A DNA stretch of 42,666 nt from NCBI GenBank assembly GCA_024695575.1, contig JAILHY010000043.1:1-42666 (forward strand). The letters are read 5' to 3'. Below the pieces are notes generated by a model that did no database searches, had not been told where the DNA came from, and saw only the letters and a list, made by a program, of their open reading frames with translations. Every line of letters starts with the position of its first letter. Within the stretch, counting starts at the first letter, position 1. A program made the translations under genes and the position numbers. The stretch is from Lachnospiraceae bacterium. GTDB taxonomy: Bacteria; Bacillota; Clostridia; Lachnospirales; Lachnospiraceae. This document shows positions 4,073 through 41,684 of the stretch, in pieces.

Positions 4073-6145
4073 ATGAAATATACTTTTTCGGAATATAAGG
4101 CGCCTGAAATACTGCGTGATCACCTGAATCTTGGTGGCGCAAATCCTTCAGGCGAGGAAATAAAAGTCAATTCTTTGTATCTTGAGCGTGGCGGCAAGCC
4201 CTGGATGAGCGTAATGGGAGAGTACCATTTCTCCCGCGATGATGAGGATAACTGGGCTGCCGAACTGTCCAAAATGTATGCGGGTGGTATAAGGATCGTT
4301 GCCACCTATCTTTTCTGGATTCATCACGAGAAAACTGAAGGCAGTCTTTCTTTTGCGGGAAATCTCAATATACGTAAATTCGTGGAAACTGCTAAGGCTG
4401 CGGGGCTTGAAGTTGTGCTCCGCGTTGGTCCCTGGGCACATGGGGAATGCCGTAACGGAGGGCTCCCGGACTGGATACTTCATAAGCCTTACAAGGTACG
4501 TTCAAATGATCCCGAATATCTTAAAGAAGTTACCCGCTGGTTTAAGGCCATTGCCGACGAGGTAAAGGGGCTTTTCTTTAAGGATGGCGGAAACATTGTG
4601 GCAGTTCAGCTTGAAAATGAGCTCACCGATGATGCCGAGCATCTTGCAAAGTTAAAAGAAATTGCTCTTGAAACCGGTCTTATTGCACCCTTATACACTG
4701 TTACCGGATGGAACTCCGCATTCGGAGCCAAGATCCCTGTTAACGAGGTGCTTCCCGTGTTCGGAGCCTACCCCGATGCGCCCTGGGCTGAGGGTACGGG
4801 TAAGCTTCCTCTTTCCAATCATTATTCTTTTTACAAAATGCGAAACGATACGGCTATCGGTGCCGATATCATAGGGAAAAATAATGATGGATGGCAGTTA
4901 CCCTACGAGCGTTACCCCTTTGTGACCTGTGAGATAGGACCGGGAATGATGAGCACGCACCACAGACGCGTGGTGGTAAGCCCGATGGATGCGTATGCCA
5001 TGAGCCTTGTTAAGCTTGGCTGCGGCAACAATCTTGTGGGTTACTATATGTATCACGGAGGGACCAATCCTACCGGTAAGACCTCCATGAACGAATCGAA
5101 GGCCACCGGTTATCCTAACGATTATCCGGTGCTTAACTATGATTTCGGAACCTGCCTTTCTCAGTACGGCGAGGCAAGAGGGCAGTATCGCTATCTAAAC
5201 CTTTTGCACTTGTTTATTCACGATTTCTGCGAGATTCTTGCGCCTATGTCGCATGTCGAGGCAAGCGAGTTTGTAAAAGAAACCGAGGATAAGCTTAGAT
5301 ACTGCATGCGTTCCGACGGAAAATCAGGTTTTATCTTTGTAAACAATCACCAGAGACTGTATAAACTTTCAGACCGCAAAGATGTGGAATTTGAGGCTCT
5401 TGGAGTGAATTTGCCTTCAATGGATATTGATAGCGATGTGACAGCAATCCTCCCGGTTAACATAACATTGGGAGAATACACCCTTGAATATGCCACGGCA
5501 CAGCTTCTCTGTCGCGATGGAAATACTTTCTTTTTCACTGAAATTCCGGGTGTTGCACCCAGGTTCAGGTTTAAGGGAAGCGACGAGTTCGAGGTTGTTC
5601 CAGGTTTCTATGTTAAGAAGCACGGCAGTATCAACATTGTTGTCCTTGAGTTTAAGGATGCCCTTTGCCTTCGTAAACTGGACGGTAAGCTCTACGCCGG
5701 CGAAGATTGTGATCTCTATCTTGGTAAGGATGAGCTTACAGGAAAGAAGGTCCTTTCCTCTATCGAACCCGGTGATTTCAGGTACAGAGAGTGGTCCGGA
5801 GCAGAGTTTTACGAGCATGATAAAGAAGTTGACTATAATCCTCCAAAGTGGGATATTATTGAATGTGAAGCGCCTTTTTCCGTGCCCGAAATGTTTGCTT
5901 GGGAGCTTGATATAGAGTCAGATACACCCAGGAAGCAGACCTGGAAGGAGATCACAACATCTTCAAAAGAAGGCTTTATCGAGATAGATTATAAGTATGA
6001 TACAGCCATTATCTTTGCAGACGGAAAGCCCGTAGCCGATAAGTTTTATGACGGCACTCCATGGCGTGTTCCGGCTTTACTTGTGGCAGATAAAAAGTCT
6101 TACATCGTAATGAGCGAACTTAAGAACGATATTTCAATAACGTAA
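4073..6145 (+). CDS. Glycoside hydrolase family 35 beta-galactosidase
   Basis: 690 aa; GEYHFSR, LRVGPWAHGECRNGGLPDWIL, IVAVQLENEL and MYHGGTNP motifs of GH35; SD ttggagg upstream. Confidence 0.9.
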   Translation: MKYTFSEYKAPEILRDHLNLGGANPSGEEIKVNSLYLERGGKPWMSVMGEYHFSRDDEDNWAAELSKMYAGGIRIVATYLFWIHHEKTEGSLSFAGNLNIRKFVETAKAAGLEVVLRVGPWAHGECRNGGLPDWILHKPYKVRSNDPEYLKEVTRWFKAIADEVKGLFFKDGGNIVAVQLENELTDDAEHLAKLKEIALETGLIAPLYTVTGWNSAFGAKIPVNEVLPVFGAYPDAPWAEGTGKLPLSNHYSFYKMRNDTAIGADIIGKNNDGWQLPYERYPFVTCEIGPGMMSTHHRRVVVSPMDAYAMSLVKLGCGNNLVGYYMYHGGTNPTGKTSMNESKATGYPNDYPVLNYDFGTCLSQYGEARGQYRYLNLLHLFIHDFCEILAPMSHVEASEFVKETEDKLRYCMRSDGKSGFIFVNNHQRLYKLSDRKDVEFEALGVNLPSMDIDSDVTAILPVNITLGEYTLEYATAQLLCRDGNTFFFTEIPGVAPRFRFKGSDEFEVVPGFYVKKHGSINIVVLEFKDALCLRKLDGKLYAGEDCDLYLGKDELTGKKVLSSIEPGDFRYREWSGAEFYEHDKEVDYNPPKWDIIECEAPFSVPEMFAWELDIESDTPRKQTWKEITTSSKEGFIEIDYKYDTAIIFADGKPVADKFYDGTPWRVPALLVADKKSYIVMSELKNDISIT

Positions 6146-34992: not shown

Positions 34993-37008
34993 ATGGATTC
35001 AGAAGCCAGCATGTCCGCTGACAGAGGCTTTATTATAAGTCTTTCTGTTATCGGTGTGGCCGGGATAGGGATTATTTTCCTTATTATTTCCCTTCTTTTT
35101 GGCCGCGGGGACGCTTCAATAGATCTTCGCCTTCAGCGTAAGGCGGGTTCCGTAAGCCTTTATGACACCAAAGGAAAAGAACGGGCCATTAACGAAGATG
35201 TGCGCTTAAGATCCGGTCAGAGCATCGGAACCAAGGAAGACAGTCTCGTTATGGTTGCCCTTGATGATAGTAAGCACATAACTCTCGATGAATGCAGTCT
35301 GGCGGAAGTCAGATCAGACGGCGGGAAGTTTGAGTTAAACCTTGTAGAGGGTAATCTTTTCTTTAATGTCAACCGTAAGCTTGCGGAGGACGAAGCATTT
35401 GCAATCAGTACAGAGACCATGGTCTGCAGGATTCGCGGCACATCCGGATACAGAGGATATGACAGTGCCGGGAATGAGATTCTTTTGGTTACCGACGGTA
35501 TCGTGGAAGTCTCTGTTATCAAGGATCAGACCGGCGAAAACATCACGGAAACTGCTGCTCCCGGAGAGAGCATCACCATAGTTAAGGATGTTGACGCTGA
35601 GGGTAACGAAGTTAAGTCTTTAGTCAAGGGCACCTTCAGGGAGGAAGATCTTCCTGCAGTGGCTCTTGATGCCATAAACAAAGATCCGGAGCTTTCCATG
35701 CGAGTTACGGAAGCCACGGGATTCTCCGAAGAAAAGCTTGAATTCCTGCACAAGGTCTTCAGTACTCCCGGAACTTCCATGGTGGGTTCGGCCGCAGAGG
35801 ATCTTAAATCAACGGGTATTTCCGATTCCCTGCCCTTAATGGGCTCAATTTCCGAAACAATGGTTTCCATAGCTAACCGCGCAGCTGATGCTTCGGGCGG
35901 TTCATTTTCAGTGGAACAGGCTATACTAACCGGTGCCCGCACAACCATCGATCAGGCGGTGGATTCGGGCTACTCTAAGGAAAGTGTGGCGTCTCTTTCA
36001 ACAGAGACCATAGACTGTGCCATAGCTCTTACCGACAAGGCAGCGGAGGCGGGCCTTGAAGAAGAAGAACTTGTTACCGTGGTAAATACGGTTACGGATA
36101 CAATAAACGAAACAGTTGTCTACATGAGTAAAGATGACTACGAGTCGGGGCTTGTAAGCGACACTGTGGGAACTATAGAATCTGCCATCAGTGAAGCCAT
36201 AGAGACAGCTTCCAATGTGGGCGGGGACGAGGTTCTTTTGTCTGTATCAAATGTATCTCACGAACTTAAGGAAACCCTTACGGAAGTTAAGAAGGAAGCG
36301 CTGGCGGAAGACAGTTTGACCAGCGAAGTCAACAGTGCATCAGATTCCCTTACAGCAAGCGAAGAACCAGAAGAAAGCAGCAAAGAAACACGTTCCGATA
36401 AAAACGAAACTTCGGTTTCCGTATTTAGGACCACCAGCGCCGGAATAACCTCAGATGCCGGTTCGGAAGTAATGGAATCAGAGGTACTGACAGATGCTTC
36501 CGGGTCTAAACCTGAATCCGAATCAGCAGATGAGACAGGAGCGTCCGTCGAACCTTATCCTATTGTACTTGAGGCAGTTAACTGCAGTGTCACCTTCATG
36601 ATCGGGGAGGAGATAATCGAATCTGCCAAGGCCGGTGACGTGGTATCTGTTTTGATTGTTCCGGGAGCCGAAGATTATGTCATGGACGGGGAAATTCTGA
36701 TAACCGATGCTGACGGCCGGGTAATACCTTTTGACGCGGAAACGGTTTCTTTTACAATGCCGGAAAGCGCTGTTACCGTTTCGGTTAAGTTTAAGGCAGC
36801 GGTAGAGGTTCCTGATCAGAATGGCAGTGATACCGACAATTCAAGCGAAGATGTGACGGGAATAAGCGATTCCTCAAGTGCTTCGGCTGAAGGTGCGGAG
36901 AACCACGAAGATACGGCCGGCGCCACTGACACAAGTGTCGAAAATATTGATCAGTCCGGTGATCATAAGGATTCGGACGATTCCGCCATAACAGGCGGTA
37001 ACGATTAG
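34993..37008 (+). CDS. Membrane-anchored FecR-domain protein with long acidic Ser/Glu-rich C-terminal region
   Basis: N-terminal TM helix, then FecR-like LRSGQSIGTKEDSLVMVALDDSKHITLDECSLAEV...VCRIRGTSGYRG. Confidence 0.75.
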   Translation: MDSEASMSADRGFIISLSVIGVAGIGIIFLIISLLFGRGDASIDLRLQRKAGSVSLYDTKGKERAINEDVRLRSGQSIGTKEDSLVMVALDDSKHITLDECSLAEVRSDGGKFELNLVEGNLFFNVNRKLAEDEAFAISTETMVCRIRGTSGYRGYDSAGNEILLVTDGIVEVSVIKDQTGENITETAAPGESITIVKDVDAEGNEVKSLVKGTFREEDLPAVALDAINKDPELSMRVTEATGFSEEKLEFLHKVFSTPGTSMVGSAAEDLKSTGISDSLPLMGSISETMVSIANRAADASGGSFSVEQAILTGARTTIDQAVDSGYSKESVASLSTETIDCAIALTDKAAEAGLEEEELVTVVNTVTDTINETVVYMSKDDYESGLVSDTVGTIESAISEAIETASNVGGDEVLLSVSNVSHELKETLTEVKKEALAEDSLTSEVNSASDSLTASEEPEESSKETRSDKNETSVSVFRTTSAGITSDAGSEVMESEVLTDASGSKPESESADETGASVEPYPIVLEAVNCSVTFMIGEEIIESAKAGDVVSVLIVPGAEDYVMDGEILITDADGRVIPFDAETVSFTMPESAVTVSVKFKAAVEVPDQNGSDTDNSSEDVTGISDSSSASAEGAENHEDTAGATDTSVENIDQSGDHKDSDDSAITGGND

Positions 37009-38432: not shown

Positions 38433-38462
38433 TAAGTCTCAATTGACCCGGTGGGAGAGGCT

Positions 38463-39629
38463 ATGCTTACTTTTTTAATCAAACTTTTGATCAAAAACCC
38501 GGAAGATCCCGCATCCCGTAGCAAATACGGGATACTTTGCGGAATCTACGGGATATTTTTAAATTTTTTTCTTTTTGCGGCCAAATACGTGATAGGAACA
38601 CTTTCGGGCGCAATTTCCATTGTTGCCGATGCTTTCAACAACTTAAGCGATGCTGCGTCTTCGGTGGTTTCCGTTATCGGTATCAGACTTTCAAACCATG
38701 CCCCTGACTTAAAGCATCCCTACGGACACGGAAGGATCGAGTATCTGGCGGGTCTTGCGGTTTCTGCGGTGATCGTTGTGGTTGGCCACAATCTGATGGT
38801 TGAATCCTTTCACAGGATATTAAATCCGGTGGATGTGGAGTTTTCACCGGCTCTTGTCATAGTTCTTGCTTTATCCGTTGCCGTTAAGCTCTATATGTCT
38901 GCCTACAACCGAAATATCGGGCGAAAGATCGATTCGCTTCCTTTGATGGCCACAAGCGTAGATTCCTTAAGTGACTCCGTTGCCACAGGCGCGGTGCTGG
39001 TTTCTGCCGTTATAGCTCATTTCACGGGCTTAAGGCTTGATGGTTATGCAGGACTCGTAGTAGGTCTCCTTATCATAATTGCCGGTATCAAGGCGGCAAA
39101 AGAAACCGTTTCGCCCCTTCTTGGCCAGGCTCCGGATCCTGAGTTTATCAAAAAGGTAGAGGAAATAGTCGGAAGCTCGTCTGTGGTTGTTGGAATGCAC
39201 GATCTTATCGTCCATGATTACGGCCCCGGTCGTGTAATGATCTCCCTTCATGCGGAGGTTCCAGGAGACGGCAATATCTTTGAACTTCATGACGAGATTG
39301 ATCTTCTGGAACTTAAGTTAAACCGTGAGTTAAACTGCCACGCCGTGATCCACATGGATCCCGTGGAGGTGGGTAATCCCGTGGTTGACGCCCTCAAGCA
39401 GATGGTAAAAGAAACCGTGGGCGGAGCGATCAAAGGAGCTGATATTCATGATTTCAGAGTGTCTGCCGGACCTACTCACAAAAACCTTATTTTTGATGTG
39501 GTGGTTCCTTTTTCGGTAAAGCTTAAGGATGAAGAAGTAAAAGACCTTATTCAGCAGGAAGTCCGGAAGAAGGACAAGACCTGCTTTACCGTCATTACCG
39601 TTGACAGGGATTTTACGGGTGGTAAATGA
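38463..39629 (+). CDS. Cation diffusion facilitator (CDF) transporter
   Basis: IVADAFNNLSDAASSVVSVIGIRLSNHAPDLKHPYGHGRIEYLAGL and C-terminal cytoplasmic domain; ATG 38463 after GGGAGAGG. Confidence 0.92.
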   Translation: MLTFLIKLLIKNPEDPASRSKYGILCGIYGIFLNFFLFAAKYVIGTLSGAISIVADAFNNLSDAASSVVSVIGIRLSNHAPDLKHPYGHGRIEYLAGLAVSAVIVVVGHNLMVESFHRILNPVDVEFSPALVIVLALSVAVKLYMSAYNRNIGRKIDSLPLMATSVDSLSDSVATGAVLVSAVIAHFTGLRLDGYAGLVVGLLIIIAGIKAAKETVSPLLGQAPDPEFIKKVEEIVGSSSVVVGMHDLIVHDYGPGRVMISLHAEVPGDGNIFELHDEIDLLELKLNRELNCHAVIHMDPVEVGNPVVDALKQMVKETVGGAIKGADIHDFRVSAGPTHKNLIFDVVVPFSVKLKDEEVKDLIQQEVRKKDKTCFTVITVDRDFTGGK

Positions 39630-40174
39630 ATGATTTTGAATTATATCAAAACTTCATAAGTGCAGGAGACGAAAACTCCTTCCGTACATTATTCGAGCGC
39701 TACCGGGAACCACTTACTTACTTCCTGTACGGTCTCGTCGGTAATCTTGATGACGCCGAAGAACTCATGCTCGATGTCTTTGCTGCTGTTTCTTCAGGCC
39801 TTGCCAGGTACAGAGAGCAGGAGGGTGCGGCCTTTAAGACCTGGCTTTACAGTGTTGCCAGAAACAAAGCGAAGATGTTCCTTAGAAAACACACTGTTGA
39901 GTTTCTGCCATTAGATGAATTGCTTGATCTTGTCCCAACTGACAATGTTCAGGATCCATTTATAGATGTTCTTTTGGATAATGAGCGTAATTCCGGGCTT
40001 TATCAGGCGCTTGGAATGATTAGGCCTGACTACAGGGTAGTGCTTTATCTTACATATTTCGAAGGTATGAAGCCGAAAGAAGTAAGCCGGGTTTTGCATA
40101 AATCGGTAAAACCGGTTTATAATCTTATTAGCAGAGGAAAAACAACTCTCAGATCTTTGCTTGAAAGGACTTAA
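39626..40174 (+). CDS. ECF-type RNA polymerase sigma factor
   Basis: Sigma2-like FRTLFERYREPLTYFLYGLVGNLDDAEELMLDVFAAV...FKTWLYSVARNKAKMFLRK; sigma4-like LGMIRPDYRVVLYLTYFEGMKPKEVSRVLHKSVKPVYNLISRGKTTLRSLL. Confidence 0.88.
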   Translation: MNDFELYQNFISAGDENSFRTLFERYREPLTYFLYGLVGNLDDAEELMLDVFAAVSSGLARYREQEGAAFKTWLYSVARNKAKMFLRKHTVEFLPLDELLDLVPTDNVQDPFIDVLLDNERNSGLYQALGMIRPDYRVVLYLTYFEGMKPKEVSRVLHKSVKPVYNLISRGKTTLRSLLERT

Positions 40175-40953
40175 TGCCCGTGAGTTCTTTACTGCTTCAG
40201 GATATAGTAGTAAATATATTGCAGATTCTTGTCCTTGTTTTTGTGATCTTTCGTGTTTCTCGCTTCTACAGAGAGGATAAAGGTCTGTTCCCTTTGTTCT
40301 TTGCTTTTGCAATGTTCAGTTTATTGCTTAGCGATATCTATTATCTTGTCTATGATTTTTTTCATCCCTATACCCGCATGCCGTTTGCGGCCAATGAAAT
40401 AGCAGAGTGCGCAACAGTGCTTCTTTTGTCTGCAGGTCTTGAATCCGGAGTCTGTAAAAAGAAAGGTTTTAAGATCGTGCCTTTCGTAATATCATTTTTA
40501 TTTATCACGCTTAATATTACACTTTGGATAGCCTGGAGCGGAGAGTGGATCCAGGATATCGTGTTCGGACTGCCTTACGTATATTTCATGTATCTTCTGA
40601 TAGTGGGAATTATGGATTACAACGCTCTTTCTTCAAAATTTGGAGTTTTGTTAGCAATCCTTACATCCCTTGTTGTCATACCGGATGCTTTGGAAGTTTG
40701 GGTTCCGGTGCTTTCTGATAAACACTTGTCAATGTATGCATATATTCCCTTAACTGCCATATCTTTGATATTGTTTATACTTTCAATAAAAGAAAAAGAA
40801 GATAATGATAAGAAACTGCTGATTTCACTTTTATTCTTCCTTTGGTCTATACTTGCCATGTATATGAGCGGCGGAGTATTTTATACGGCAGCTCAGGTTG
40901 TTAATACGGGAGCAATTATTATATGTACGCTGAAAATATCCTCATCTGTATAG
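40174..40953 (+). CDS. Polytopic membrane protein of unknown function (about 7 TM)
   Basis: 259 aa, multiple hydrophobic segments; start overlaps ECF stop (TAATG); 3' end overlaps the PrsW-like gene. Confidence 0.7.
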   Translation: MPVSSLLLQDIVVNILQILVLVFVIFRVSRFYREDKGLFPLFFAFAMFSLLLSDIYYLVYDFFHPYTRMPFAANEIAECATVLLLSAGLESGVCKKKGFKIVPFVISFLFITLNITLWIAWSGEWIQDIVFGLPYVYFMYLLIVGIMDYNALSSKFGVLLAILTSLVVIPDALEVWVPVLSDKHLSMYAYIPLTAISLILFILSIKEKEDNDKKLLISLLFFLWSILAMYMSGGVFYTAAQVVNTGAIIICTLKISSSV

Positions 40954-41540
40954 CAATCCCGTTGTTTATCGCCCTTTTCTTCATCAAAGGGGGCGCCAAA
41001 CGGTTTTTGTTCGCATTCCTGATCGGAATGGGAGTGTGTTTGCTGTCTGCATATATCGGAGGATTCCTTGAATCTGCATCCGGGATGACTTTGGAAGATA
41101 CTTCTGTATTTATTTCGCCGGTCACGGAGGAGATCATGAAATTCCTTCCGGTTTTACTTTATCTTTTTCTTTTTGAACCCGGGGGTGAAGAATTTGTTAT
41201 GGTGGCTCTCGGAACGGGAGCCGGCTTTGCTACTCTTGAAAACTGCTGCTATATACTTACCACCGGAGCCACGGAGTTACCTTATATCATGGTTCGTGGT
41301 ATGTCTGTGGGAGTCATGCATCTAATGAGTATGGCGGTACTTTCTTTTGGCGTTAATCTTTTAAGGAAACATGAGATCCTTTCTTTTGCCGGTATTATAG
41401 GAGCTCTTTCATTGTCTGTATCCTTTCACGGTCTGTATAATCTTATGGTGTCGGAACCCGGAGTTACAGCATATATCGGATATGCGCTTCCGTTAGCCTG
41501 TGCGCTGGCTCTTAGATTGAGAATAGGAATGAAGAAATAG
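40923..41540 (+). CDS. PrsW-family putative intramembrane glutamic protease
   Basis: 205 aa polytopic; PVTEEIMKFLP (EExxK), GFATLENCCYI (ENxxY), RGMSVGVMHLMSM and SFHGLYN histidines, as expected for PrsW. Confidence 0.75.
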   Translation: MYAENILICIAIPLFIALFFIKGGAKRFLFAFLIGMGVCLLSAYIGGFLESASGMTLEDTSVFISPVTEEIMKFLPVLLYLFLFEPGGEEFVMVALGTGAGFATLENCCYILTTGATELPYIMVRGMSVGVMHLMSMAVLSFGVNLLRKHEILSFAGIIGALSLSVSFHGLYNLMVSEPGVTAYIGYALPLACALALRLRIGMKK

Positions 41541-41684
41541 AAAAATTTATATTTTATGTGAGTAAAAAAGAAAATTCCTGCAATAAAATAGTGTTAGATA
41601 ATATTTTGCCGGATGGAATCCACTGCGCTCATGCGGACGGATACGTGGGTTCTGTCCGGGAATATACGTCAATTGGAGAATGAT

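Follow-up and report, generated by a model that had tools for sequence, protein, structure and literature searches.

The stretch of DNA analysed here (42,666 nucleotides; hereafter the window) is an entire contig, C53, of a 2.55-Mb, 82%-complete and 5%-contaminated MAG of Lachnospiraceae type, as judged from its nearest named relatives. Near its end lie genes for an ECF sigma factor, a polytopic membrane protein and a PrsW-like protease, followed by a predicted promoter and a gene for a secreted DUF6273 protein, inside which the contig ends (Table 1). The three genes are tightly packed, and the ORF coordinates agree with the overlaps given in the first-pass annotation: the ECF gene is joined to the gene for the 259-aa protein by TAATG, where the last A of TAA is the A of ATG, and the latter gene runs 31 nt into the PrsW-like gene. 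The ECF start also shares 4 nt (ATGA) with the end of the CDF transporter gene that precedes it. This overlap is an insertion junction with no functional link, and the transporter gene is not part of the cassette. Further upstream in the window (34993-37008) is a gene whose 671-aa product has a TM segment at its N-terminus and only a weak InlB-repeat-like match, and is FecR-like by eye.

Table 1. Features of the sigma factor cassette and its flanks in the window
Feature	Coordinates	Strand	Basis
CDF cation-efflux transporter, left flank and insertion point	38451..39629	+	PF01545/TIGR01297
ECF sigma factor, 182 aa	39626..40174	+	Sigma70_r2 / Sigma70_r4_2
Nine-helix membrane protein, 259 aa	40174..40953	+	AlphaFold model; without Pfam/NCBIfam match
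PrsW-family intramembrane protease, 205 aa	40923..41540	+	PF13367 8.5e-15
Predicted cognate promoter	41559..41587	+	Exact motif copy
Secreted DUF6273 protein, N-terminal 327 aa, cut by contig end	41685..42666	+	DUF6273 9e-13

The reading of these genes as an ECF/PrsW signalling cassette is borne out by the Pfam domains and by conserved co-localisation. The sigma factor matches Sigma70_r2 (PF04542, 1e-14) and Sigma70_r4_2 (PF08281, 1.5e-10), and with sigma2 and sigma4 regions only and a length close to the approximately 180 aa used as a criterion for ECF (group IV sigma-70) factors it belongs to that group. The proposed classification stands at the level of the ECF family, as no NCBIfam equivalog cut-off is reached; the nearest solved relatives in a PDB comparison include SigH/SigE and SigW. 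The PrsW-like identity of the protease is confirmed by a PrsW-protease profile match above the cut-off. In 37 relatives E69, E70 and K73, E106 and N107, H133 and H169 are invariant, and the protein thus has the EExxK motif, the conserved His in TM5 and the H in TM6 that go with PrsW-family membership. The EExxK and histidine motifs have been described for PrsW (PMC4602095). The TM6 motif of the window protein is HxxxN, not HxxxD, and the score of 24.7 bits against NCBIfam NF033739, the equivalog for PrsW sensu stricto, lies far below the cut-off of 225 bits. One related cassette (L073:594-1229) has two PrsW genes, one before the sigma gene and one after the polytopic gene.

The 259-aa protein had been called 7TM-like. 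It is polytopic, as claimed, but a confident model (AlphaFold pLDDT 92) has nine helices, and the positive-inside charge pattern of the model corresponds to an N-out/C-in topology. No family in Pfam or NCBIfam, no sequence in the PDB and no protein encoded on phages or plasmids matches it, and in a PDB fold search the model obtained at best an E of 0.1 with a TM-score of about 0.3, judged meaningless, as were the results with the viral library. Columns invariant over 50 relatives are R68, E75, E78, WIAWSGEW (118-125), D128 and Y237, all extracytoplasmic, and the invariant R/P/E and WIAWSGEW..D residues map to the outer face of the model. The modelled cytosolic loops average approximately 9-12 residues, with a tiny C-tail. 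The family with the invariant WIAWSGEW, for which no structural match was found, is uncharacterised.

With the 259-aa protein as the only query, 57 loci were retrieved from a public genome collection, and the expected neighbourhood conservation is found: the sigma-polytopic-PrsW order is kept in nearly all of them. The sigma gene is missing in two loci, genuinely in L042 and at a contig end in L078, and the PrsW gene in one (L071, contig end). Since sigma and PrsW are near-constant and the gene order is always the same, the association is not due to chance. With few exceptions the polytopic gene overlaps the PrsW gene or directly adjoins it, and it is with PrsW rather than with sigma that its product is constantly paired. 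Hosts are Lachnospiraceae, Oscillospiraceae and other Clostridia, one Coriobacteriales bin and six Fibrobacter genomes. In a tree of sigma, polytopic protein and PrsW from 61 cassettes, drawn without an inferred root, the Fibrobacter rows are nested within a Firmicute clade, a placement suggestive of horizontal transfer. Literature searches brought up no description of the cassette; the three genes form the core of a signalling system that is widespread in gut bacteria and undescribed.

The first-pass annotation regarded the cassette as lacking a recognisable anti-sigma factor. Indeed, no RsiW-like single-pass protein was found in the window (ORFs, Pfam, NCBIfam). In many related loci, however, a gap of about 300 bp between the sigma and polytopic genes encodes a two-TM protein of 104-113 aa, named here 2TM-a, and about 14 nt at the start of its gene are shared with the end of the sigma gene. 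Such overlap with the sigma stop is frequent among coupled anti-sigma genes. A profile of 2TM-a found a second member, 2TM-b, in nearly all loci, located just after PrsW or, in Fibrobacter, divergently upstream. The two belong to one family with a common N-terminal motif, TM2 and G-G-Y-V loop, and the predicted structure consists of a long helix (residues 5-52, the cytosolic segment and TM1), a YGSxLL..GGYV loop and TM2; no Pfam match exceeds the curated cut-off. When 299 genomes of the family were surveyed with a distance limit of 3 kb, a two-TM gene was found near 25 of the 26 cassette-type PrsW genes, the sole exception being the window, and 39 of the 46 two-TM genes were within that distance of a cassette-type PrsW. 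The two-TM protein is therefore a near-constant companion of the cassette, showing across relatives the locus adjacency expected of an anti-sigma factor.

This companion bears on the earlier proposal that the polytopic protein is either an unconventional anti-sigma or a PrsW substrate or sensor. In its fuller form, the first option makes the nine-helix protein both anti-sigma and PrsW substrate, sequestering sigma through its cytosolic loops and leaving the two-TM proteins as accessories. It would fit the translational coupling of the nine-helix gene to sigma in the window clade and the occurrence of the protein in all loci, including those that have lost 2TM-a. The modelled loops and C-tail are nevertheless very short, and loops of 9-12 residues are, to our knowledge, too small for any known anti-sigma domain. 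In addition, the invariant residues face outwards, the gene does not adjoin sigma in loci with 2TM-a, and the protein keeps its pairing with PrsW in L042, where sigma is absent. We consider this option improbable. The short loops, the outward invariant residues and the overlap with the PrsW gene together argue for a receptor or PrsW partner, and on the basis of the model we propose that the nine-helix protein is a sensor or PrsW partner and not an anti-sigma; this part of the earlier suggestion remains plausible. Locus L042 (about 4980-5983) encodes a 2TM protein, the nine-helix protein and PrsW, with a 197-aa protein without Pfam match in the place of sigma.

Of the 61 cassettes, 25 have a full 2TM-a, eight a fragment of it and 28 none. 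No full copy occurs in the window's own clade, which has 16 members and full support (nine absent, seven fragments), and as the neighbours of that clade (L004, L048, L059) have a full 2TM-a, loss is the simplest reading. Of the 36 loci without full 2TM-a, 31 retain 2TM-b and three of the other five stop at a contig end; L030 and L062, with a short fragment and no full two-TM protein, count against the explanation that we favour below. The fragments in the sigma-polytopic gap of L030, L032, L036, L037, L038, L040, L047 and L062 are pieces of 33-39 residues comprising TM2 only; kept in divergent lineages, they may have a function as a micro-protein and not be mere debris.

Inside the window an HMM search over all six frames detected no two-TM remnant. 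Because the window ends inside the DUF6273 gene, the absence of a further downstream gene is not judgeable from it alone. The only two-TM gene of the genome, of the 2TM-b type, is on another contig, C150 (2392-2700, equal to L122:2392-2700). At the start of that contig is the 3' portion of a gene for a secreted protein (L122:2-2377; Flg_new, DPxTDP repeats, DUF5648), directly followed by 2TM-b and then by PadR, HAAS, DUF4097, PilT and gpmI. DUF6273 and Flg_new occur in a single protein in L038 (Butyrivibrio sp. INlla16), and by comparison with it approximately 70 residues (about 0.2 kb) appear to be missing between C53 and C150. Furthermore, in six genomes of the same genus (G001, G003, G012, G014, G016, G017) CDF is the direct neighbour of PilT, at a distance of about 70-110 bp, while in the source genome CDF is near the end of C53 and PilT is on C150. 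The ends of C53 and C150 have no exact overlap; from the CDF-PilT synteny and the DUF6273/Flg_new domain order we strongly infer that C150 lies directly downstream of C53 and that the CDF-PilT junction is the site of the cassette, although the incompleteness and contamination of the MAG count against this linkage. The insertion is right at the CDF stop codon (the ATGA overlap), and the junction is empty in the six same-genus genomes.

The inhibitor in the source genome is thus very probably the 2TM-b protein encoded just past the end of the DNA fragment, and the puzzle of the missing anti-sigma is mostly resolved as an effect of the contig end. The description of the cassette as one without a recognisable anti-sigma is not supported, given an obligate two-TM companion with its single copy placed on the next contig, and the case shows how a contig end can produce an apparent 'orphan' sigma. 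The same data speak to the idea that the cassette is partly decayed, with 2TM-a lost and sigma unregulated, driving the surface operon constitutively as a result of read-through from CDF into sigma. Repeated loss or truncation of 2TM-a and the overlap of sigma with the CDF gene speak for it. However, the nine-helix protein and PrsW are intact with all invariant residues, the promoter and 2TM-b are retained, and a large clade stably keeps the layout that lacks 2TM-a, all of which makes decay highly improbable.

The promoter motif TGAGTAAA-N12-TGCAACTAAT is found in 53 of the 61 cassettes, before whichever gene opens the operon for the secreted protein and 2TM-b. A dyad, GTAAA-N17-CTAA, is present upstream of 2TM-b in 19 of 56 sequences, compared with at most five when shuffled, and upstream of sigma no dyad is enriched, with one exception (L050). 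The window copy, TGAGTAAA-N12-TGCAATAAA, is of the -35/-10 type with a 17-nt spacer and is an exact motif match (none expected in the shuffled window); its -10 element TGCAATAAA departs slightly from the consensus, a point against the model that we prefer. The -10 element TGCATT occurs in 10/10 members of one sigma clade and in 1/43 elsewhere. Such covariation with the sigma clade is as expected if the cassette sigma reads the promoter, and the ECF factor is predicted to do so in the window. The secreted DUF6273 gene, with an exact conserved cassette promoter in front, can accordingly be kept as a regulon member, as was suggested. A SigW-type promoter, placed upstream of both targets and sigma, was not found; the cassette promoter is different and is not upstream of sigma.

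Exact promoter matches are rare: two in the 2.55-Mb genome, one being the window copy, and a single match or none, mostly at the cassette, in eleven cassette-bearing genomes. An exact match is also seen in 11 genomes without a window-type cassette. The second match in the source genome (C94:4017), which falls close to or inside a gene for an MFS-type transporter and recurs near-identically in G316, was treated as chance. Typically the gene after 2TM-b codes for a large protein that is secreted and contains Flg_new, LRR, Ig-like, SLH or CWB2 domains, and the cassette appears to switch on this one neighbouring cell-surface-protein operon. Genome G151 has three near-identical units of promoter, 2TM-b and secreted protein (L152, L153, L159), one of them with the sigma cassette, and is possibly a case of a multi-target regulon.

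The place of 2TM-b in the target operon raises the main rival explanation, in which 2TM-b helps to export, anchor or assemble the secreted protein and belongs to the output, and sigma is held by 2TM-a or, where that is lacking, by PrsW and the nine-helix protein or through expression only. Orphan copies of 2TM-b, away from any sigma or PrsW, adjoin secreted-protein genes; they lie directly upstream of large ones, with the same kind of promoter in L152 and L153 and with the motif absent in L156. Thus 2TM-b could serve the secreted protein, and these copies count against our preferred explanation. On the other hand, the features common to 2TM-a and 2TM-b and the retention of 2TM-b where full 2TM-a is lost argue against a pure output role, as does a motif that this rival leaves unexplained. 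When a matrix of the N-terminal 25 residues of the two-TM proteins was scored over 1105 other ORFs, seven of the top ten were encoded directly after related PrsW-less ECFs with unrelated outputs, and the zinc-finger-type neighbours in L018 and L021 did not match. This recurrence supports an anti-sigma role, and on these sequence grounds the two-TM protein is likely the anti-sigma of the cassette; we judge the output role unlikely, though less so than the other alternatives. In L014, L016, L017, L019, L025, L026 and L027, PrsW-less ECFs are followed by single-pass proteins that have the N-terminal motif of about 25 aa and varied extracellular domains (serpin-like by eye in L026), a candidate family of short-motif anti-sigmas.

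The two-TM N-terminus, approximately 25 aa, is shorter than class I anti-sigma domains, searches for which exclude domains under 50 aa (PMC7406223). This size difference counts against our explanation; equally, short anti-sigma segments of this kind would be missed by such searches. A PDB search with the two-TM profile returned no anti-sigma chain and no CnrY-like (class II) sequence similarity. Its match to 7ue2, apparently a designed helical protein, was dismissed as helix similarity.

Taken as a whole, we regard the following model as somewhat better than evenly supported; its steps of sigma binding, sensing, cleavage and feedback are what we infer from the genes. The cassette would be a self-contained, horizontally spread regulated-intramembrane-proteolysis circuit. 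At rest, the two-TM protein (here only 2TM-b) would tether sigma to the membrane through its cytosolic N-terminal helix of about 25 residues. The nine-helix protein, which is encoded next to PrsW and probably works together with it, would sense an envelope or extracellular cue by its invariant outward-facing pocket and license PrsW, which would cut the two-TM protein near the conserved YGSxLLxxxxGGYV loop or the start of TM2. The released sigma would then transcribe one main operon, the products of which are 2TM-b and a large surface protein that is secreted (here DUF6273/Flg_new/DUF5648), so that activation would renew the inhibitor in a negative feedback. The sigma-less L042, which keeps the other three components, counts against this model. 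That the architecture is also new, with a new-fold nine-helix receptor gating a PrsW that destroys a minimal two-helix anti-sigma, a private promoter, feedback via a giant surface protein and a second anti-sigma copy, and movement of the circuit between phyla, seems to us somewhat less than an even bet.

In the Bacillus subtilis SigW-RsiW-PrsW-RasP system, RsiW is a single-pass zinc-finger anti-sigma with a class I domain, and the site-2 protease RasP completes its degradation. The cassette resembles this system in having an ECF sigma, a PrsW-family protease with EExxK and two histidines, and a small membrane-bound protein as the likely inhibitor. It differs in that the candidate inhibitor has two TMs and a short N-terminus in place of an RsiW-like zinc-finger single-pass protein, and PrsW is in an operon with an unrelated nine-helix partner; the promoter is also different. 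The regulon is essentially one operon, compared with 89 strictly regulated genes for SigW (PMC3498285). With CnrH-CnrY of Cupriavidus metallidurans (class II anti-sigma) it would share a very short membrane-anchored cytosolic segment of one or two helices, binding being presumed here; sequence similarity is not detectable (the folds were not compared), and CnrH-CnrY has no PrsW. CnrY is single-pass and works with CnrX. We know of no PrsW coupling in the B. subtilis SigM-YhdL-YhdK system. That system likewise relies on inhibition by membrane proteins, which form a complex (PMC6827917), but the proteins share no family match with those of the cassette and the SigM regulon is large. In contrast to the cassette, SigI-RsgI includes no PrsW, SigI is not an ECF factor and RsgI has its own extracellular sensor domain. 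SigI-RsgI of Clostridium thermocellum pairs a Firmicute sigma with a membrane anti-sigma, and in fibre degraders this kind of pair controls surface proteins. The cassette can be read as a variant of ECF/PrsW regulated proteolysis, notable for its polytopic family, the relation of that family to PrsW and the proposed feedback layout.

The signal that switches on PrsW in B. subtilis is, as far as we know, still unsettled. As PrsW is locked here to one partner, a candidate substrate family, a sigma and a promoter, its activation becomes testable in a compact, transferable circuit. The analysis also defines a candidate family of minimal anti-sigmas, as well as a predictable promoter that appears to control large surface proteins in Firmicutes of the gut and rumen and in Fibrobacter. 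A divergent second subfamily (L015/L160, L024, L028, L158, L161), without the same promoter motif, has a polytopic protein of 208-229 aa and the order sigma-2TM-polytopic-PrsW-2TM, which is permuted in L158/L161.
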